A stretch of DNA of 64,000 nucleotides, from positions 124,001 through 188,000 of the IMG/VR virus record IMGVR_UViG_3300024336_000005. The stretch is one strand, 5' to 3'. The notes below the pieces were generated by a model, which saw only the letters and a program-made list of their open reading frames with translations, was not told the DNA's origin and did not search any database. Position 1 is the stretch's first letter. Every line of letters begins with the position of its first letter. Of this stretch, positions 7,655-55,830 are shown in pieces. This DNA comes from a virus. Position numbers and translations under genes: made by a program.

Positions 7655-7823
7655 GTCCTGCGCTCCTCTTCCACTACGTGGTCGCGGATGCTCGGAGTCA
7701 GTTGCTTGTTAACACAGGTTTACCTCAGGCTACGGAGCTTGCTCAATGCTTGAGCTTCGCCCCTAGGCCTCCAGGTAAACCACAGTAAACAAGCAAGCGA
7801 CCTAAGGCTTGCCTTGGGGTCGG
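7655..7823 (+). ncRNA. Candidate structured RNA before tRNA-Arg(ACG)
   Basis: No gene. It starts with the recurring element (TGCGCT, stem CCAC-TAC-GTGG, ATGCTC at about 7660-7694). A long nested stem follows: GCTTGTT (7704-7710)/AACAAGC (7788-7794) and GGTTTACCT (7717-7725)/AGGTAAACC (7773-7781). Hairpin CGACC/GGTCG (7798-7822) ends one base before the tRNA. Confidence 0.6.
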
Positions 7824-7897
7824 GCCCGCTTAGCTTAATGGATTAAAGCGACGGTCTACGAAGCCGTTAAATCTAGGTTCGAATCCTAGAGTGGGTG
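7824..7897 (+). tRNA. tRNA-Arg (anticodon ACG)
   Basis: Acceptor GCCCGCT/AGTGGGT (G1-U72 wobble), D arm GCTT/AAGC, anticodon stem ACGGT/GCCGT, loop CTACGAA (ACG), T arm CTAGG-TTCGAAT-CCTAG, G73, no CCA. If the host's TadA deaminates A34 it would read CGU, CGC and CGA. Confidence 0.92.
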
Positions 7898-7906
7898 CAT
7901 AGTCTA

Positions 7907-7924
7907 ACTCTCAGAAGAGAGGAG
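7907..7924 (+). repeat. Small ACTC/GAG hairpin, copy 8
   Basis: CTCTC-AGAA-GAGAG stem followed by GAGACGTAC, ten nucleotides after tRNA-Arg. Same family as 3629. Confidence 0.6.
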
Positions 7925-7929
7925 ACGTA

Positions 7930-8041
7930 CATAACGACAGCCCCTGCGCTCAACTACGTTGATGCTCATGTCTGTCTGTCGGATTCCCCAAGGGTAACCC
8001 GACGATCATATAGACTTATGAACTTCGGTCTATGGGTTTAT
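7930..8041 (+). ncRNA. Candidate structured RNA before tRNA-Thr
   Basis: No gene I can support. It carries the recurring element TGCGCT-CAAC-TAC-GTTG-ATGCTC (about 7944-7966). Compared with 7660, the stem changed from CCAC/GTGG to CAAC/GTTG while the TAC loop and flanks stayed. A second hairpin ATAGAC/GTCTAT (8010-8033) lies just before the tRNA. Confidence 0.55.
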
Positions 8042-8121
8042 GCCAGCGTGGCTCAGTGGCGACAGCACCGATCTTGTAAGTCGGTATCTCAACATCGTAG
8101 GTTCGATTCCTACCGCTGGCA
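8042..8121 (+). tRNA. tRNA-Thr (anticodon UGU) with a long variable loop
   Basis: Acceptor GCCAGCG/CGCTGGC is perfect. Anticodon stem CCGAT/GTCGG, loop CTTGTAA (TGT), T arm GTAGG-TTCGATT-CCTAC, A73, no CCA. The variable region is 12 nt (TATCTCAACATC) with no internal stem, unusual for a class I tRNA. Confidence 0.85.
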
Positions 8122-8136
8122 CATAAGGAGAGAAAT

Positions 8137-8235
8137 ATGTTCTTGTTAATTGGTTTGCTTTGTCTCATTGCAGGAGCCTACAAGGTTGCACTGCTGTTTG
8201 TAATCCTTTCTGTATTCCTTGGGGAATGGCAATGA
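8137..8235 (+). CDS. Tiny membrane protein, 32 aa
   Basis: AAGGAG sits 7 nt before the ATG. The product is almost entirely hydrophobic (MFLLIGLLCLIAGAY, then VALLFVILSVFLGEWQ), one transmembrane helix with a Lys in the middle. The stop overlaps the next ATG. Function unknown. Confidence 0.65.
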   Translation: MFLLIGLLCLIAGAYKVALLFVILSVFLGEWQ

Positions 8236-8546
8236 AGCATCCAATAAGGCCCAGCCCGAGAAGGGTTACCATTTCTCCTTACAATTCTTTAAGATGGGCA
8301 TTCAAAGAATCAGGATTATCCTTTGAAGAATTCCTTGATGCAGACTTAGTTACACGTGACTGTGGTTGCTACCATGACTGTAGCTGTACTGGAGTGGACC
8401 TTCTAGTAGAGACTGATGACCACAAAGAAGCCATGAGTAAATACAACAAAGTTTTACTTGAGTGGCATCTTTGGGAGGAAGGGGAAATGGAAAGGAAGGA
8501 GAGGCTCCAGCTTGAGGAGCTCAAGGCTAAATATGAGGCAAATTAA
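8232..8546 (+). CDS. Hypothetical protein, 104 aa
   Basis: I chose ATG 8232 because it overlaps the 32-aa gene's TGA. The middle has closely spaced Cys and His (DCGCYHDCSCTG), a possible metal site. The C-terminal 40 residues form a charged helix. No family recognised. Confidence 0.7.
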   Translation: MKHPIRPSPRRVTISPYNSLRWAFKESGLSFEEFLDADLVTRDCGCYHDCSCTGVDLLVETDDHKEAMSKYNKVLLEWHLWEEGEMERKERLQLEELKAKYEAN

Positions 8547-8743: not shown

Positions 8744-9158
8744 CGAACTTGGAGCCTCCTTACGGGAAGCCTTAGAGTCCGCTACTGCTGTAGCTCAGGA
8801 AAGCCCCGCTGTCTTTAGACACGGGGCTGTTTTGTTTAAGGGAAGAAAGATTCTAAAGGCCGGGTGCAACGAATACAGAGCTGTTCGTTGGGCCTGGCCT
8901 TCTTCATTTGTGCAAGAAGAGGATGGAGAACTTTCTCAGATTAGGTTGAACAATATGCATGCAGAAGTATCTTGTATGCATAATGTGAGACGGGAGAATA
9001 TCAGGGGGAGTGATATCCTCGTGGTTAGGATAAATAATCAGGGCACTCTCATGTATTCGAGACCCTGTAAGAGGTGTATGTGCGCGATGGCCCTTAAGAA
9101 AGTGCGTCGTTGTTACTTTAGTGTTGATTCAGAAACGATTGGAATAGTTCAGCCATGA
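8730..9158 (+). CDS. Cytidine/dCMP deaminase-fold protein
   Basis: 142 aa. Zinc motif HAEVSC near residue 78 (H ligand and catalytic Glu) and PCKRCMCAM near residue 113 (two Cys ligands) match the deaminase fold. With the RNR, thyA and dUTPase of this phage, pyrimidine deoxynucleotide deamination is plausible, but RNA substrates cannot be excluded. It overlaps the upstream gene by 14 nt. A terminator-like hairpin lies inside its coding sequence. Confidence 0.8.
   Translation: MKKIDELGASLREALESATAVAQESPAVFRHGAVLFKGRKILKAGCNEYRAVRWAWPSSFVQEEDGELSQIRLNNMHAEVSCMHNVRRENIRGSDILVVRINNQGTLMYSRPCKRCMCAMALKKVRRCYFSVDSETIGIVQP
8802..8837 (+). terminator. Intragenic terminator-like hairpin
   Basis: AGCCCCG pairs with CGGGGCT and, past a bulged C, TGTC pairs with GACA around a TTTA loop; GTTTTGTTT follows. 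It lies about 70 nt into the deaminase-fold gene. It looks like an intrinsic terminator or attenuator but may be fortuitous. Confidence 0.35.
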
Positions 9159-10354: not shown

Positions 10355-10924
10355 ATGGATCTATTTGAAATCCTTCTTCCTCCGGCCACTGATCCTATAA
10401 CAGTTGATCTTTTAAGGAGAGAGATTTGGATTGTAGGTGCTGTTCTTGAAGGATCTTCTCAGACAGTTGTGAGAGGCCTAAGGGAGATGTACCGTCTCCA
10501 TCCCGAAGCTCCCATCTCAGTTTTTGTTAACTGTGAGGGTGGAGATCCGAATGAGGCGTTGGTGATGGCTGACTTTATGTTGGCCTTCAGCAAGAAGCTG
10601 ACAGTTAAGACAAGTGTTGTAGGCACGTCTTACAGTGCGGCAACATTAATAAGTGCGGCTGGCACCAAGGGTCATCGCTATGCGATTCCCTCTGCTGAGT
10701 TTCTCATCCATGCTCTTTCAATAGGTCACATTGGTGGCAAGATTGAAGACGTTGAGGAGACTACACGGCACCTAATTAGACTGAATGGAAAGCTGGCCTC
10801 TCACTTGAGCTCTATCACAGGGATGGAGATGTCAAGAGTTGAAGCTATGATGAGTAAAGAAACTTTTTTGAATGCCCAAGAAGCTATCCAGTGTGGTTTG
10901 TGTGACCAGATTGGTATGATTTAA
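10355..10924 (+). CDS. clpP: ClpP-like serine protease
   Basis: 189 aa, the usual ClpP length. The nucleophile region GTSYSAATLISAAG aligns with the GQAASMGAFLLAAG block of ClpP and keeps Ser; SAEFLIH carries the catalytic His. The third residue, Asp in the RDRFLSAPEA block, appears as Glu (SKETFLNAQEA). No Clp ATPase is in the window, so it may act with a host ATPase or as a maturation or scaffold-type protease. Weak ribosome-binding site. Confidence 0.85.
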   Translation: MDLFEILLPPATDPITVDLLRREIWIVGAVLEGSSQTVVRGLREMYRLHPEAPISVFVNCEGGDPNEALVMADFMLAFSKKLTVKTSVVGTSYSAATLISAAGTKGHRYAIPSAEFLIHALSIGHIGGKIEDVEETTRHLIRLNGKLASHLSSITGMEMSRVEAMMSKETFLNAQEAIQCGLCDQIGMI

Positions 10925-11456: not shown

Positions 11457-11639
11457 ATGAGAAGAATTGCAAGATACAATGGTACCACCTGGGCAATGGA
11501 GGACGTTCCTGCGAACGTGTTCCTCGACATGGCCCTCGTTCCTGTTTACCCTGACCTTCGAGGCGCCACTTGGGTGGAGTCAGTAGTTGGAGATGAAATC
11601 ATCTTCGATTACCAGAAGAGAGCTGGCGAAAAGGGTTAA
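11457..11639 (+). CDS. PRTRC protein C-like ubiquitin-fold protein
   Basis: 60 aa after GAAAGG. RIARYNGTTW, then VYPDLRGATW, then IIFDYQKRAGEKG match the PRTRC protein C pattern I recall: an R-x-F-x-YNG strand, YPELTTA, and a Y-x-F-x-R-x-VGTKG end. That family has a ubiquitin-like fold and is the expected substrate of the E1-like enzyme encoded 2.7 kb downstream. It ends in KG rather than GG. A terminator-like hairpin follows, perhaps letting this gene be expressed above its partners. Confidence 0.72.
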   Translation: MRRIARYNGTTWAMEDVPANVFLDMALVPVYPDLRGATWVESVVGDEIIFDYQKRAGEKG

Positions 11640-11981: not shown

Positions 11982-12568
11982 ATCTGGTGTCTTACATTGA
12001 ACAGACAGATAAGTTTCCTGACGTCACCGAAAAAGTCAAGAAGGTAGAAGCAATCTACAGAAAGATGGCCTATCTTGAAGCGAATAAGTGGCTCAAGGAT
12101 AGCGATAAGATCCTTAGATACAAGGGAAAGAAGGATATTAAAGCATTCGCTAGTGACACTTGGCCTCGCTCAGCATGGGCTCTTATTTCTGGTGCCGTAG
12201 TTAAGCCGGCCTTTCTTGGTTGTGCCCATATGCATCAGCTAAAGAAGAGGCCGGACTCATCCTTTGAGATTAGCTTTAAGGATGGACAGGGATATCAGAG
12301 CCCTTACTATGGCAGAAATATGGCTACGGTTGCCGCTCGAAGAGAGTGGAGAGATAGATGCCGCGCCATAGCCGGCGGAGGAGATGTCACCTGGGCTTGG
12401 GAAACGCACAGAACAGAAGCAGATGGGATAGCCATATTAAGAGTGAATTATAAGAAGTCAAATCTGGTATCGACTGCGGCTGATAGAATCTCATTTGAAA
12501 AGCTTGCTACAGATGTAGAAGCGCTTGCGACTTTAGTAAAGGTCGCAATGGAAGGAAGAGTAATTTGA
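11978..12568 (+). CDS. Hypothetical protein in the PRTRC-like cassette
   Basis: 196 aa. Begins with helices rich in Lys/Glu; the middle has the motif SGAVVKPAFLGCAHMHQL and a basic patch (ATVAARREWRDRCRA). Its last codons overlap the TTG start of the E2-like gene, so it is probably part of the same translation unit. Not recognised. Confidence 0.65.
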   Translation: MNLVSYIEQTDKFPDVTEKVKKVEAIYRKMAYLEANKWLKDSDKILRYKGKKDIKAFASDTWPRSAWALISGAVVKPAFLGCAHMHQLKKRPDSSFEISFKDGQGYQSPYYGRNMATVAARREWRDRCRAIAGGGDVTWAWETHRTEADGIAILRVNYKKSNLVSTAADRISFEKLATDVEALATLVKVAMEGRVI

Positions 12569-13263
12569 GCTACTCAAAGCTTTTGATGACCCTTGTCCCC
12601 GGAGAGACAACAGTAGGGGTCCTCATCGAGAAGAAGAATGGGACTAAGGAAACCTTTAGGGTTGCACAAGACTCAATTTCTTCTATCTTTTCAGGGAACT
12701 ATTGTTCTGGATACTTGCCCTCCTCTCAGGATGGCGTTGTCTATCTAGAAGAAAAGGAAGGCAACAAGTTAGTGGTCATCCAGCGAGGGGCCAGAGAGGC
12801 TCAGGATCTTCAGTGGAATGACCATACTGGGACTCGTGAGCAGATGAAGATAAAGACAAAGACTCCGAATGCCTTCTTCGTCTTTGTCTTGGGTCCGTCA
12901 GAGGGTGGATACAGGATTAAGAAGGAGCGTATCTTTGTTTCGACTGGTCCGACCAGAGGGCCTACGACCCCTCTGTATAATGCAGAATGGTTGGGCAATG
13001 TATACAATCGTTCGCCTAGCGATGGCGCGAGGACAAACATTTGTTGGGGGACAACTACTGTTGCTCCAATGGGAATTGTAAGTGTCTCTTCTTTGATGAA
13101 TATCGCTAACGATTTCTTTACTCAGGACTTTACACAGCACCTACGTGGGACAAGAGCCATCTGGGAAGAATACAATAATACCAGAAGCTTTAGAGAGACT
13201 CAGCGTATGACTTTGGCTGAAGTGATCAGGAGGATGTGGGATGGACTTCCGGACACCCATTGA
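12565..13263 (+). CDS. PRTRC protein B-like (Prok-E2 family) protein
   Basis: 232 aa, TTG start overlapping the previous stop. The C-terminal half (NAEWLGNVYNRSPSDGARTN, then ICWGTTTVAP, then FFTQDFTQHL) matches the PRTRC protein B layout: NVY, a G-x-V/I-C-x-G motif, a proline, and FF-x-S-x-FTH. That family is classed with prokaryotic E2-like folds. Cys160 in NICWGT is the candidate conjugating residue. The assignment rests on recalled family pattern plus gene order with Ubl, JAB and E1. Confidence 0.68.
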   Translation: MSYSKLLMTLVPGETTVGVLIEKKNGTKETFRVAQDSISSIFSGNYCSGYLPSSQDGVVYLEEKEGNKLVVIQRGAREAQDLQWNDHTGTREQMKIKTKTPNAFFVFVLGPSEGGYRIKKERIFVSTGPTRGPTTPLYNAEWLGNVYNRSPSDGARTNICWGTTTVAPMGIVSVSSLMNIANDFFTQDFTQHLRGTRAIWEEYNNTRSFRETQRMTLAEVIRRMWDGLPDTH

Positions 13264-14356
13264 GCCTAAGCCTGAATTTCTTAAGAAGTTCGAAGCTCAA
13301 GAGTGGGCGGTGCACCTTGGAGAAATTCCAGAGACTTTAGTAAGGAACTCAACCCTCTCCATCTTTGGAGATGGTAAGTATCTCACAAGGTCAAATCCCA
13401 TTGGGACTTTTACGCGCAGAATTGAGCGTATGGATATTCCTACATTGGATCATGGACCCGACCCAAGCTTCTCCTTGAAGCTACCTAAGGTGCCTGCTGC
13501 TATTCTGATGAAGCAGGTGAGCTTCTACCGTGAGGTAATGAAGCTCTTTAATGATGCAGAAGCCTACTCCATTGTCATGTATGACACTGTAGAAGAGCAA
13601 TACTTTTTGGTCATTCCTGAGCAGACCATCTCTAAGGCGCACGTTAAGTACGATCAGCCTGAGCTAAGGAAGAAGTACCCTTCCGACCGCTACATTGAAG
13701 TTATCTCTGCTCATAGTCACAACTCTATGAATGCATACTTCTCTCCCCTTGATGACAAGGACGAGAAGGGAGATATTCTATACATGGTGATGGGTAAGTT
13801 GAACCAAGAGGTTCCAACCTATTGCATCCGTGCAAATGTGGCTGGTGCGGAGTGCGTCAAGCTTCCCCTTGAGGATCTGTTTGATCTTTCTGAAGAGAAC
13901 TGGGCAGAGCTTTCTCCCTATTGGGAAGACCTTCATGACAGCACTTGGGTCGAGCAGCTCCATGTTCGAGGGCCTGTTGTTAGTGCTCACTCTCAGTTTG
14001 ATCAGATGCTTAAGACCTTTCAGGGCTCTCGCCCAAGAAGGCCTTTCACTGGTAGAACAACGGGAAGCCAGATGGACTTCTTTAACCAGACCGAAAGTGA
14101 AGTGGGGAGCGAAGGCTCTGAGCAAAAGGAATTCATTACAATCGCCTGTGCCTTGATTAAGGACGCTAGAAGCTTACCTCCTGAGCAGGTTATGTTTAAT
14201 CTGATATCGAATCTCTTAGAGAGGGGATACGCAGAGGACATTCATGCTGCCATTGTTGCTTGTGATCATGTTGAAGAATTCCAGGCGATGGAAAAAGATG
14301 ATTGGGAATTAGATATGAAATTGCGTATGGAGTTAGATGATGGCTGGTATTCTTAA
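13241..14356 (+). CDS. JAB/JAMM-domain protein (PRTRC protein A-like)
   Basis: 371 aa, ATG preceded by AGGAGG. The JAMM zinc motif is visible: H158-S-H160, seven residues, S168, two residues, D171 (AHSHNSMNAYFSPLDDKDE), the same spacing as PRTRC A proteins. JAMM enzymes are zinc isopeptidases that cut ubiquitin-like proteins from substrates. About 130 extra C-terminal residues are unrecognised. It overlaps the B-like gene by 23 nt and the E1 gene by 20 nt. Confidence 0.85.
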   Translation: MDFRTPIEPKPEFLKKFEAQEWAVHLGEIPETLVRNSTLSIFGDGKYLTRSNPIGTFTRRIERMDIPTLDHGPDPSFSLKLPKVPAAILMKQVSFYREVMKLFNDAEAYSIVMYDTVEEQYFLVIPEQTISKAHVKYDQPELRKKYPSDRYIEVISAHSHNSMNAYFSPLDDKDEKGDILYMVMGKLNQEVPTYCIRANVAGAECVKLPLEDLFDLSEENWAELSPYWEDLHDSTWVEQLHVRGPVVSAHSQFDQMLKTFQGSRPRRPFTGRTTGSQMDFFNQTESEVGSEGSEQKEFITIACALIKDARSLPPEQVMFNLISNLLERGYAEDIHAAIVACDHVEEFQAMEKDDWELDMKLRMELDDGWYS

Positions 14357-15503
14357 TTTCGAGGGAATTGATCCACTCCTAAAGCTTTCTTCAAAGCTTG
14401 GAGTTGCACTTGATAGCGCACAGGATTTGCATCCTGTCTTCCGAATCGCAGGGATTGTTTCTCAGACGGGAACGTTGCTGGACTATGCCGTCAAGCTTGT
14501 TCCCGATCGGCCAGAGACTAAGACGACTGTGGTGCAGAACTACCGAAACGTACATACCTTTACGGCACAACAGCCGACCATAGTTATGGTAGGTTGTGGC
14601 GGTACGGGCAGTCACTTGCTTCCAAATATTCTACAGTATGCAATCACCAAGGCGGCTCAACAGACTGTTACCCCTCCCTGTGTCATCATTATCGATGGAG
14701 ACGGAGTGGAAGAGAAGAACCTAATTCGACAGAGGTTCACTCAAGCGGACCTTGGAGAGAACAAGGCTATTGCCTTGTCTCGTCGCTACAGTGCAGTGTT
14801 TGCTACAAAGATTAAGGCTGTAGACACTTACCTTGAGGACTCAAAGCAGCTGATTGGCCTTATCAAGGACGAAGCCCCAGCGGTTGGTCCTATCATTTTA
14901 GTAGGGGCAGTGGATAATCACAGAGCTCGTGCTATTTTGTGGGACACCTTCTTGAGCGAGACCCAGAGGGAGATCTGGTGGGTTGACGCAGGAAATGAGT
15001 CCTGGCATGGTCAGGTCATTTCTGGGTGCAGGAATGTACAGACAAAGGGAGATTCCCATTGGGCTGCCGCAGGCATCGGAGATGATATTGCTTCTGTTGA
15101 TCTGCCTTGCTTCTTCGATGAGTATCCAAAGGAGTTCATGAAGATTGGCGGTACGCCAACGACTCCACAGAATACTTGTGCTGCAGTGGCTGAGGAGGAC
15201 CCTCAGACCATTCATGCAAACTCATTGTCAGCCCAATGTGCTTCAAACATTATCACTCAGATTCTTGAGGGTGAAGTTAGAGTAATGGGATTGAACTTTG
15301 ATGCAAAGACTGGTCAGGTTAAAGCCAAGATTCTTACACGAGTGAACATCGCCACCGCATACGTTGACATGAAAAACTCAAGAACTTCTCTTCGGGGATT
15401 CCTTGGGGACCTATGCTCGTGGAAGGGGAAGTCTGAACCGGCGACTCTCTTCCCGGGACTATACAAAAAAGCAAAGGTAGAGGATCTCTATACGGCTATT
15501 TAA
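14337..15503 (+). CDS. ThiF/E1-family activating enzyme (PRTRC-type)
   Basis: 388 aa. Nucleotide-binding VGCGGTGSH at about residues 85-93, IIDGDGVEEKNLIRQ (the Asp and Arg that engage ATP), and Cys281 in PQNTCAAVAEEDPQ, where PRTRC ThiF proteins carry their candidate catalytic Cys. E1 enzymes adenylate the C-terminus of a ubiquitin-like protein and take it as a thioester. About 80 N-terminal residues precede the Rossmann fold. Its stop overlaps the reverse transcriptase ATG (TAATG), a strong sign of co-expression. Confidence 0.88.
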   Translation: MMAGILNFEGIDPLLKLSSKLGVALDSAQDLHPVFRIAGIVSQTGTLLDYAVKLVPDRPETKTTVVQNYRNVHTFTAQQPTIVMVGCGGTGSHLLPNILQYAITKAAQQTVTPPCVIIIDGDGVEEKNLIRQRFTQADLGENKAIALSRRYSAVFATKIKAVDTYLEDSKQLIGLIKDEAPAVGPIILVGAVDNHRARAILWDTFLSETQREIWWVDAGNESWHGQVISGCRNVQTKGDSHWAAAGIGDDIASVDLPCFFDEYPKEFMKIGGTPTTPQNTCAAVAEEDPQTIHANSLSAQCASNIITQILEGEVRVMGLNFDAKTGQVKAKILTRVNIATAYVDMKNSRTSLRGFLGDLCSWKGKSEPATLFPGLYKKAKVEDLYTAI

Positions 15504-16357
15504 TGTACAGACAGTATAAAATAAAGAAGCGCAAAGGAGGGTTCAGAACTATTACTGAACCCTCTGACTCTTTAAGTGAGATGCTGTCTTACCTTAAGGT
15601 GCACTTAGACGCCCTGCCCATGAGTGAACATGCTCATGGCTTTATTGTGAATAAGAGTATCATTACAAATGCCCTGCCGCACCGGAACAAAAGATATGTC
15701 CTTAACCTAGACGTTAAGAACTTCTTTCCCAGTGTTAGAAGGCCTCTGATGATGGAAAAGTTAGCTCCCTTCTTTAATGAAGGGAAGCTTCCTCTAGACA
15801 TCAGAGATTGGATTCATGAGTTGTGCTTCTTTGAAGGAGCGCTACCTCAGGGCTCACCAACCTCTCCTGTTCTTTCTAATCTCTATATAGCAGAGATAGA
15901 CGAAGAGCTAGTCAGAGTAGCAGGGGAGATGGACTGTACTTATACTAGGTACGCTGATGATATGACCTTTTCAGGAGGAGACGTCCTGAAAAGTGAGAGG
16001 GATAAGGTGGCGCGCGAGGTCGATCTTCTCTTGCAGAGGATTGAACTAAAGCTCCACCCACGTAAGGTAAAGCTTATGCCATACTATCAGAGACAGATTG
16101 TCACTGGCATTGTGGTAAATAATGAAAAATTGACGCTACCTAGATGGTACAAAGAGGAACTCTTCCTTGCTACAAAGGGAGAGGATCCGTCTACCTTCGA
16201 TGAACAATTCAGGGGTGTTCTTGAGTATGTTCGTTCGGTAGATTCACAATTCTATAAAAAAATGTGCAACCATATGATTGCACCAAAGGAGAATGAAGAT
16301 GGCAACACTTCCAGAGTGGATCACAGAGGTCCGATTTTATGCAACGACTCCCAGTAG
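15503..16357 (+). CDS. Retron-type reverse transcriptase
   Basis: 284 aa. Motif A LDVKNFFPSV, motif B LPQGSPTSPVLSNL, catalytic YADD in YTRYADDMTF, and a later RQIVTGIVVN. NALPH before motif A and VTG after motif C are the retron-RT hallmarks NAxxH and VTG. QG in motif B argues against a diversity-generating RT. There is no maturase or endonuclease domain, so not a group II intron. It is translationally coupled to the E1 gene; the usual msr-msd RNA is not visible immediately upstream, which is coding. Confidence 0.88.
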   Translation: MYRQYKIKKRKGGFRTITEPSDSLSEMLSYLKVHLDALPMSEHAHGFIVNKSIITNALPHRNKRYVLNLDVKNFFPSVRRPLMMEKLAPFFNEGKLPLDIRDWIHELCFFEGALPQGSPTSPVLSNLYIAEIDEELVRVAGEMDCTYTRYADDMTFSGGDVLKSERDKVAREVDLLLQRIELKLHPRKVKLMPYYQRQIVTGIVVNNEKLTLPRWYKEELFLATKGEDPSTFDEQFRGVLEYVRSVDSQFYKKMCNHMIAPKENEDGNTSRVDHRGPILCNDSQ

Positions 16358-16658
16358 TGACCGCGCCCCTCAGGCACGCGGTTCAGTAACATTTGCTGGT
16401 GCTGTTTACTCACAGTTCACAGTCTGGCAGTCAAACGATGGCGCCCTTCAGGTTGTACTGCCGAGAGTAAAGAACCCAAAGTATAATCCTGACGAAGCTC
16501 ACTCGAAGACCAACAAGATGTACTTCGAAGAGGTTGGTTGTACCAGCGGAGAGAAGAGGGAAGAGCTTGGCAAGGCTATCATTGGAAGCCTTCTCGAAGA
16601 GAGGAAGGCGACTCCAGTCAAGGAGAGCAACACAGGTTCGGACGGCATTCCGTTTTAA
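16299..16658 (+). CDS. SpoVG-like protein with SSB-like C-terminal tail
   Basis: 119 aa; ATG 16299 has AAAGGAGA at good spacing and lies inside the RT's last 59 nt. The core (ITEVRFYATTP, then RGSVTFAGAVYSQFTVWQSN, then GALQVVLPRVKN) has the strand pattern of SpoVG-type nucleic-acid-binding proteins. It ends SNTGSDGIPF, like the D-D-I-P-F tip by which bacterial SSBs recruit partners. Single-strand binding in replication is a reasonable inference. Confidence 0.6.
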   Translation: MATLPEWITEVRFYATTPSSDRAPQARGSVTFAGAVYSQFTVWQSNDGALQVVLPRVKNPKYNPDEAHSKTNKMYFEEVGCTSGEKREELGKAIIGSLLEERKATPVKESNTGSDGIPF

Positions 16659-16971: not shown

Positions 16972-17291
16972 TGGGAGTCTTCAGCATGGCTCGCACTCAA
17001 GCCTTGGCAACTGCCTTCTCAAAGGCAATTGGAGAGACAGAAGGCTTGCATGATGTTGAGATTGCCTACGCCTTAGCAGCAACGATGCGTGGTCTTGGTG
17101 AAGTGCTATACGATAAAGAAGACACCTCTAAGGAGGCTGTCCTCGAAGACTATGCAAGCTCACCAAGTTGGGCTGGAGCTTTAATGATACATGCAGATCA
17201 AATCCATGTAATCAGAGAGCTTTTCATTCGGACAAAAGAATCCAATATAGATGAAGGAGTTGAAACAGACTCCAAGGAGACAGACGAATAA
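16971..17291 (+). CDS. Hypothetical helical protein, 106 aa
   Basis: TGATG overlap at the start and TAATG at the end tie it into the operon. Alanine-rich helices; acidic tail (EGVETDSKETDE). No family recognised. Confidence 0.65.
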   Translation: MGVFSMARTQALATAFSKAIGETEGLHDVEIAYALAATMRGLGEVLYDKEDTSKEAVLEDYASSPSWAGALMIHADQIHVIRELFIRTKESNIDEGVETDSKETDE

Positions 17292-17863
17292 TGGAGCAGG
17301 AACAGTTTGATACACTAGTTAGAGGGATCTCAGCGGTCCTTGATAATGTAAGGACCCCACAGTTTCGCCCTCCCTCAGTAAACTTCTTCATGCCTAATCG
17401 AGGCCAGCTGCAGTTTACAATCGCCGCTCCACGTTATCGTGAAGTTGAGCGAAAGAATCCTAAGGATGCTGGAGTTCGCTGGGCAGATAAGATGGGAGCG
17501 GTCTTCGTTGAGGCAGCTCCTGCCTTGCCGAACTCAGACAAGCTGGACTGGGACAATAAGAAGATGATCTTTGCCATGTCAGACAAGGACATCGGCCAGG
17601 TCCTTTGGGGCTTTGCTGCCAAGAAGGAAGACATCCGACTTGTTCACGCTCCTGATGAAAATGCAAAGCAAAACAATAAGACCTTCCGAATCCGAAAGGG
17701 AGATGACTTTAGAGGCGAGCCTCAGTGGATTCTATCTCTTACGGAAAAGAAGAATGGAGAGTCAAATGAAGTCTCTGTGTTCATCAAGGGACCGGATATG
17801 ATGAGACTCAAGTCGCTGTTGGAGGGAGCAATTCCCTACATACTGGGCGCCCATCGAACTTAG
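17291..17863 (+). CDS. Putative nucleic-acid-binding protein, 190 aa
   Basis: Two long beta-sheet blocks each followed by a helix, with basic turns (TFRIRKGDDF) and a C-terminal FIKGPDMMRLKSLLEGAIPY helix. The layout recalls Whirly/MRP-type single-strand-binding folds, but I see no diagnostic motif, so this is only a suggestion. Confidence 0.5.
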   Translation: MEQEQFDTLVRGISAVLDNVRTPQFRPPSVNFFMPNRGQLQFTIAAPRYREVERKNPKDAGVRWADKMGAVFVEAAPALPNSDKLDWDNKKMIFAMSDKDIGQVLWGFAAKKEDIRLVHAPDENAKQNNKTFRIRKGDDFRGEPQWILSLTEKKNGESNEVSVFIKGPDMMRLKSLLEGAIPYILGAHRT

Positions 17864-54902: not shown

Positions 54903-55830
54903 AGCACCAGAAGTCGGCTCGCTAGTTCAAGTAGAAAAGAATCTTAGGCTTCGTCATGTCGTTGGACAAGAGGAGGCCGTAAGGAGACTAGCGGGTCTTG
55001 TTGATCGAATCTTGAATGATGATCACTTCTCTGACTGGGCTCTCGATAAGCCAAAGGCCATAGCCTTGACTGGGCCGCCTGGCTGTGGGAAGACCCACTC
55101 AATTAGAGCATTAGCAAATGAAGTTGAATGTCCTTTGATTGAACTGTGCTATGAAGACTTGGCGTCTCATCTGTATGATGAATCGATTGAAAAGTTGGCG
55201 GCGTTTAAGGCTCAGGTGGACGAAGTCTCAAGAGAGCATGGACATGTATTAATTCTTATAGACGAAGCAGACAGCTTCTTTCTATCTAGGTTCGATAGCA
55301 ATGTCCATGCGTCTGACAAGAAGAAGACAAACTTCTTCCTTCGTTGGATTGATGGAGACATGGAGGGCAGCCAGAACTTTACAATGGTTGTCACCTCTAA
55401 TGCGTGGGACTTAATTGACCCTGCCCTTAAGAGGTCTGGGCGCTTTACTGAGATCAAGTATCACAAGCTAAAGCCCGAGCATATAAAAGAAGCCCTGCAA
55501 GTTCATATTGAACTCGCTGAGTCTAAGGCTGGTAGGAAGATGTTCGCTCCCTTGGAGGGAGACTTCGCATTGCCGGCAACAGTTACTGGGGCTGACATCA
55601 AAGAGATCGTGGCAGAAGTGCTACTGCAGAAGGCCAATGAGTTTCTTCCTCTGTATAGACTGAAGATGGATGGTCAAGACGTTAATATTACATACGGAAA
55701 GGATTCGTTAATTCATCCTGATGATGTGTACGCTGCGGCATTTAAAATTGCCAATAGTATGAATCAGGAGAAGAGGAGTGTGGGGTTTGGACGGAGCAGA
55801 ACTGAATGTGCTGAACATTATAAAGCGTGA
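54889..55830 (+). CDS. AAA+ ATPase
   Basis: 313 aa. ALTGPPGCGKTHSIRAL (Walker A), VLILIDEADSFF (Walker B), VVTSNAWDLIDPALKRSGRF (sensor 1 and arginine finger). Closest in layout to FtsH/VCP-type classic AAA modules but with no membrane or protease domain. Likely a remodeller of phage protein complexes. Confidence 0.88.
   Translation: MGNAEAPEVGSLVQVEKNLRLRHVVGQEEAVRRLAGLVDRILNDDHFSDWALDKPKAIALTGPPGCGKTHSIRALANEVECPLIELCYEDLASHLYDESIEKLAAFKAQVDEVSREHGHVLILIDEADSFFLSRFDSNVHASDKKKTNFFLRWIDGDMEGSQNFTMVVTSNAWDLIDPALKRSGRFTEIKYHKLKPEHIKEALQVHIELAESKAGRKMFAPLEGDFALPATVTGADIKEIVAEVLLQKANEFLPLYRLKMDGQDVNITYGKDSLIHPDDVYAAAFKIANSMNQEKRSVGFGRSRTECAEHYKA

Follow-up and report, generated by a model that had tools for sequence, protein, structure and literature searches.

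Retrons such as Ec86 and Kva2 combine a reverse transcriptase (RT), an msr-msd RNA and an effector; they serve bacteria as defence systems, the list of their effectors is limited, and the complex of RT and msDNA restrains the effector. AbiK and some DRT enzymes act without an RNA template or by protein priming. The PRTRC cassette of plasmids (ParB-related, ThiF-related) comprises E1, JAB, E2-like and ubiquitin-like (Ubl) proteins, and we know of no established function for it. Our literature search, outside which most subscription papers lay, returned no report of an RT together with a PRTRC or ThiF cassette. Retron-like RTs without features of diversity-generating retroelements (DGRs), and with no known role, have been described in the Staphylococcus jumbo phages DC4, Madawaska and MarsHill (PMC10638138).

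Here we analysed a 64,000-nt stretch (the window) of a 204-kb phage record, in which a retron-type RT lies downstream of a PRTRC-like Ubl cassette. The window RT has the RT family and the NAxxH and VTG motifs in common with retrons, but it lies inside a phage Ubl operon with no known retron effector, has no detectable adjacent msr-msd and shows almost no N-terminal extension. Since the system is owned by viruses here, the usual retron setting is reversed. The surrounding E1, JAB, E2-like and putative Ubl proteins can be matched to PRTRC models, either themselves or by way of relatives; they differ from the plasmid cassette in being phage-borne, in being accompanied by an RT and in their divergence, with scores under the curated cut-offs. 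Among five PRTRC-like plasmid regions sampled, none carried a retron-type RT annotation. The Staphylococcus RTs are likewise retron-like enzymes of large phages without DGR features, but they have not been reported beside a Ubl operon (PMC10638138) and are about 28% identical to an RT of the type B cassettes described below.

The region 14337-16357 consists of two genes, an E1/ThiF gene (ATG at 14337, TAA at 15501-15503) followed by the RT gene (ATG at 15503, stop at 16357, 284 aa). The features of the locus are collected in Table 1.

Table 1. Features of the cassette and RT locus, in window coordinates.
Feature	Position	Strand	Basis
Putative ubiquitin-like protein (60 aa, PRTRC_C-like, ending in GEKG)	11457..11639	+	alignment to relatives, position
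Small cassette protein, 96 aa	11691..11981	+	same position (about 91-127 aa) in L042, L043, L090, L094
Cassette protein, 196 aa	11978..12568	+	same position (260-307 aa) in L042, L043, L090, L094
E2-like protein (PRTRC_B / Prok-E2_D by homology), TTG start, I-C-W-G cysteine motif	12565..13263	+	via relatives
JAB/JAMM-type protease (PRTRC_A)	13241..14356	+	PRTRC_A 8.1e-13
E1-like adenylating enzyme (PRTRC ThiF)	14337..15503	+	PRTRC_ThiF 7.9e-29, ThiF 2.1e-12
Retron-type reverse transcriptase, short N-terminus (starts at YRQYKIKK)	15503..16357	+	family models, tree, L016 ortholog 45% identical
Perfect 10-bp hairpin inside RT coding sequence	15537..15564	+	hairpin scan
Second perfect 10-bp hairpin inside RT coding sequence, just past YADD codons	15967..15993	+	hairpin scan
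Small protein, SSB-like C-terminal tip (...DGIPF), start overlaps RT 3' end	16299..16658	+	homologs
Whirly-fold protein (nucleic-acid-binding family)	17291..17863	+	Whirly 4.5e-7

By every sequence test the window RT is retron-type. The NALPH (NAxxH), QGSPTSP, YADD and VTG motifs named in a preliminary description of this DNA were all found, and residues D70, D152 and D153 were invariant in a 20-sequence alignment; judged from these kept catalytic residues, the enzyme is probably catalytically intact. The best PADLOC models were those for retron RTs (near 196 bits, E 1.2e-58), with retron types III-A, XI and XIII scoring almost equally. The best NCBIfam model was retron_St85_RT (1.8e-56, under the model cut-off), and the solved structures that matched best were retron RTs. 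In an RT tree of 170 rows the window RT was placed with the retron RTs, while the group II, DGR (BPP-1 Brt) and Drt2 representatives fell outside the retron set; the references were three retron RTs and one each of group II, DGR and Drt2, the other UG/Abi groups being unsampled. Both group II introns and DGRs are known in phages (PMC12350094), and the RT could in principle be a leftover of one of them. We consider this exceedingly improbable, given the position of the group II and Brt rows and the absence of intron features that the preliminary description had also remarked: Pfam found RVT_1 only (3.9e-21) and no maturase domain in the window RT, and neither in the window nor in the further parts of the 204-kb record covered by the search did Rfam detect an RNA of an intron or a retron. 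Elsewhere in the same genome we observed a tmRNA gene (L007:5869-6490, or G000 85869-86490; 622 nt against a 374-position model) and a match to the Twister-P5 ribozyme over the gathering score (L005:15516-15583, about 55516-55583 in G000).

The RT start codon and the E1 stop codon have one A in common (TAATG), the A of the ATG being the last base of the TAA, and the preliminary description had taken this overlap as translational coupling of the two genes. The overlap is real, but it is nothing unusual here: 20 of the 77 same-strand junctions in the window overlap by 1 or 4 nt, so that the TAATG join alone carries little information. Since, in addition, an HNH gene splits E1 and RT in the ortholog L016, we no longer regard the coupling as special. 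We also considered a fusion of E1 and RT by -1 frameshifting at the A6 run near 15466. The RT frame stays open over the 22 codons before its start, but the fusion found no support among relatives.

As the preliminary description had stated, the RT lies downstream of a ubiquitin-like system and has coding DNA on both sides. Reading towards the RT, the upstream genes encode a Ubl-like protein and two small proteins, then an E2-like protein, a JAB protease and finally an E1. The 60-aa Ubl-like protein matched no family model of its own; it aligns with PRTRC_C proteins from L042, L090, L094 and Tunicatimonas, ends in K-G, and its L042 counterpart matches PRTRC_C (E 0.001). The window E2-like protein also lacked a family match of its own, so its putative identity comes through L016/L042: it matches the L016 gene (E 5e-14), whose product in turn matches Prok-E2_D (3.9e-5) and PRTRC_B (2.6e-5), and its cysteine is aligned across relatives. 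In the JAB protein H158, H160, S168 and D171 varied little or not at all across 14 aligned sequences, leaving the HxH..S..D motif intact. The E1, whose PRTRC_ThiF score is under the curated cut-off, has G86, G88, G91, D120, D122 and C281 invariant in a 16-sequence alignment. Homologs of the SSB-tip protein come after the RT in L042, L043, L090 and L094, while a profile search of 28 other Ubl-cassette records found none. A homolog of the Whirly protein is located downstream of the RT in L016 as well (E 2e-23). As far as can be read from sequence, the SSB-tip and Whirly genes suggest that single-stranded DNA is handled nearby. No RNase H was found in the window phage's own genome. In one of the five plasmid regions sampled, on the large B. 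velezensis plasmid pAD3 (L236), E2-JAB-E1 is followed straight away by an RNase-H-like gene (RVT_3, 7794-8450) that bears the annotation 'reverse transcriptase-like', and its place in the slot after E1 hints at RNA-DNA hybrids.

To weigh how far the RT and the cassette belong together, we consider their linkage in other contigs, many of which are fragments. The neighbourhood is preserved as a whole in a related phage (L016/L042), whose RT is 45% identical to that of the window and is followed by the same SSB-tip gene; here an HNH-like gene, whose L043 equivalent matches HNH models, separates E1 and RT. In L016 a tmRNA gene was observed at 13463-13868, just past the RT and SSB-tip genes. A search of viral contigs with the RT as query gave 80 loci, 11 of which had both JAB and E1 no more than 10 kb away, compared with none of 80 bacterial RT loci. 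About nine further contigs had a retron-type RT adjoining a phage JAB-E1 cassette, and their gene order varied. The order JAB-E1-RT, in some cases interrupted by a gene between E1 and RT, was found in L043, L077, L090, L094 and L117, JAB-RT-E1 in L118, and RT-E2-JAB-E1, with the RT beside the E2-like gene, in L091 and L100. The exact TAATG join recurs in L305 (E2-JAB-E1-RT), the RT is 4-5 kb away from E1 in L029 and L116, and in L084 the E1 and RT lie at the contig's two ends and are adjacent only if it is circular. We found no named phage isolate with the pair, only the unannotated faecal contig MT835544.

Since the RT query alignment was drawn in part from loci already near an E1, we repeated the linkage test with E1 only. 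For the type A cassettes the E1 scan gave 23 loci, 9 of them with an RT, which in 4 of the 9 was located ~4 kb from E1; among the earlier type A records an RT of any kind was present in 3 of 23 and absent in 20, which makes the RT an accessory in type A. When the E1 of a second kind of cassette (type B) served as query, 45 loci were recovered, and the RT adjoined E1 in 30 of them (some near-identical: L255-L257; L250 and L251), including nearly all loci with at least 38% E1 identity. The RT and the Ubl operon might nonetheless be neighbours merely by dense packing, with the RT doing a job of its own in repair, defence or anti-defence. Genes in the window do lie very close together, with a median junction of 2 nt, most type A phage Ubl cassettes have no RT, and other large phages, such as the Staphylococcus jumbo phages, have RTs and no Ubl cassette (PMC10638138). 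Against this, the RT stays in the operon at differing positions in distant phages (after E1, between JAB and E1, before E2), and the type B linkage (30/45) contrasts with its absence from the bacterial RT loci (0/80). We regard a chance neighbourhood as rather unlikely. The survey of RTs near PRTRC ThiF genes gave no sign of random insertion, and the RT/Ubl module that the preliminary description had offered as a new kind of unit is strongly supported, because the pairing recurs, in several gene orders, and is recovered by E1 searches that make no use of the RT.

The module need not be old as a single unit. In the tree the window RT groups with those of L042 and L043 (support 96-98), L090 groups with L094 and L100 with L104, and the type B RTs are separate, forming one supported clade except for the fragment B_L254, which is too short to be placed. 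Constraining the 12 linked RTs together cost 31.5 log units (AU p 0.046), so that a single origin of the linkage is weakly rejected. This result suggests, without proving it, that RTs were recruited to the cassette repeatedly and not once in an old event.

The type B cassettes bear directly on the question of the template. Within them the E1 alone is firmly identified; JAB is matched with weak scores, and no recognised family was found for the presumed Ubl or for the large middle protein of 445-628 aa. In most loci a gap of about 285-600 nt separates E1 from the RT start, and the gap in L243 folds with a z of -11. We searched these gaps for the a1/a2 repeats of retrons, that is a repeat ending before a G and paired with a repeat that follows an AG near the RT start, and called a pair significant if five or fewer of 100 shuffles were as long. 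By this test 21 of 33 type B loci were significant, and the type A-like loci gave one marginal case in nine. The a1/a2 helix and an msr hairpin also covary in type B, with a score of 0.459 against 0.239 +/- 0.023 for shuffled alignments (0 of 500 as high) and 0.09-0.15 when the structure was slid; the alignment was built without the structure, and sequence relatedness inflates the shuffle test while affecting the slid control less. A covariance model of the msr (R1) matched three further type B loci at the expected place, one of them significantly (L244, E 8e-4) and two weakly (L266, L260), and gave nothing convincing on the type A loci. The type B relatives thus share with retrons the a1/a2 repeats, the G after a1, the msr hairpins and the position upstream of the RT. 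Since their E1-RT gap usually holds an msr-msd, complete retrons exist inside phage ubiquitin-like operons. Two side observations concern RNA near type B RTs: in L254 one minus-strand ORF occurs in the E1-RT gap (8829-8984) and again after the RT (about 10579-10815), which suggests a duplicated ncRNA copy, and in L245 an Rfam 'skipping-rope' RNA directly follows the RT (10406-10476).

The window RT itself showed no such adjacent RNA. E1 and RT leave no gap, no a1/a2 pair was found beside the RT, Rfam gave no match near it even at E 1, and the msr model gave nothing convincing on the window genome (best E 0.37). The preliminary description had proposed an RT using a template elsewhere; this fits the window, but in the type B relatives a canonical msr-msd stands between E1 and RT. 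The RNA might instead overlap the operon's own genes, for example as an msr-msd within the 5' RT coding sequence (about 15481-15650). Two of the six perfect 10-bp short-loop hairpins in the 64 kb lie within the 855-nt RT gene, although this count was spotted after the fact, and the 241 nt around the hairpin at 15537..15564 fold strongly (z -4.7). However, the fold is missing at that place in L042, L043 and the other linked RTs, for which reason we dropped it as a conserved RNA, and neither an a1/a2 pair nor an Rfam or msr-model match accompanies it. An overlapping msr-msd is accordingly improbable. Another candidate, the gap between E1 and HNH in L042 (8988-9335) and L043 (9099-9335), was dropped as an msr-msd because it has a tRNA-like 3' half at its end (GGTTCGATTCC...ACCACCA in L043; not called by ARAGORN). 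In the type A-like locus L091, a 478-nt stretch upstream of the RT (401-878, z -6.1, repeats TACAGGCTA / TAGCCTGTA) is a possible msr-msd candidate.

A lack of adjacent template RNA would also be expected if the RT acted without an RNA template or by protein priming, in the manner of AbiK and certain DRT enzymes. The short N-terminus, unlike that of type B and most retron RTs, points in the same direction: the window RT starts almost at the first conserved motif, and the RTs of L042, L043, L090 and L094 likewise start within ~20 residues of it. However, sequence and tree place the enzyme with the retron RTs and outside the Drt2 row, the NAxxH and VTG motifs are kept, and the Drt2 model gives the window RT 58 bits against a cut-off of 390. 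We give an untemplated or protein-primed mechanism very little credence.

Our preferred reading, which we hold to be somewhat more probable than its negation, is that the RT, retron-type and catalytically intact, functions as part of a phage PRTRC-type Ubl operon made up of Ubl, two small proteins, E2, JAB, E1, RT and SSB-tip protein, and that its cDNA controls, or is acted on by, the Ubl pathway. The RT would make single-stranded cDNA during infection, and the RT/cDNA complex would control the Ubl pathway or be acted on by it, by analogy with retron RT-msDNA complexes controlling their effectors. Since no known retron effector stands beside the window RT, the Ubl operon is a candidate for the effector arm. 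The cDNA would then gate protein conjugation and might play a role in the contest between phage and host, for which the preliminary description had suggested a possible anti-defence or competition device. Since no template RNA is adjacent to the window RT, its template would come from elsewhere or be an RNA that overlaps coding sequence.

We put forward more tentatively, and with less than even confidence, a further possibility, namely an undescribed class of phage retrons with Ubl conjugation as its output. In such a class the RT-made DNA would sense or mark an infection event and switch the tagging of host or phage proteins, and the window would represent a derived version, with the RT translated directly after E1 and its template located elsewhere. 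The RT/Ubl pairing, present in dozens of viral sequences and in some of them with a complete retron RNA gene, points to an undescribed type of machinery in which the synthesis of DNA may be connected with the tagging of proteins. That a retron and a PRTRC cassette share an operon in many phages offers each of them a role that can be tested, in which DNA made by the RT would be tied to this tagging.
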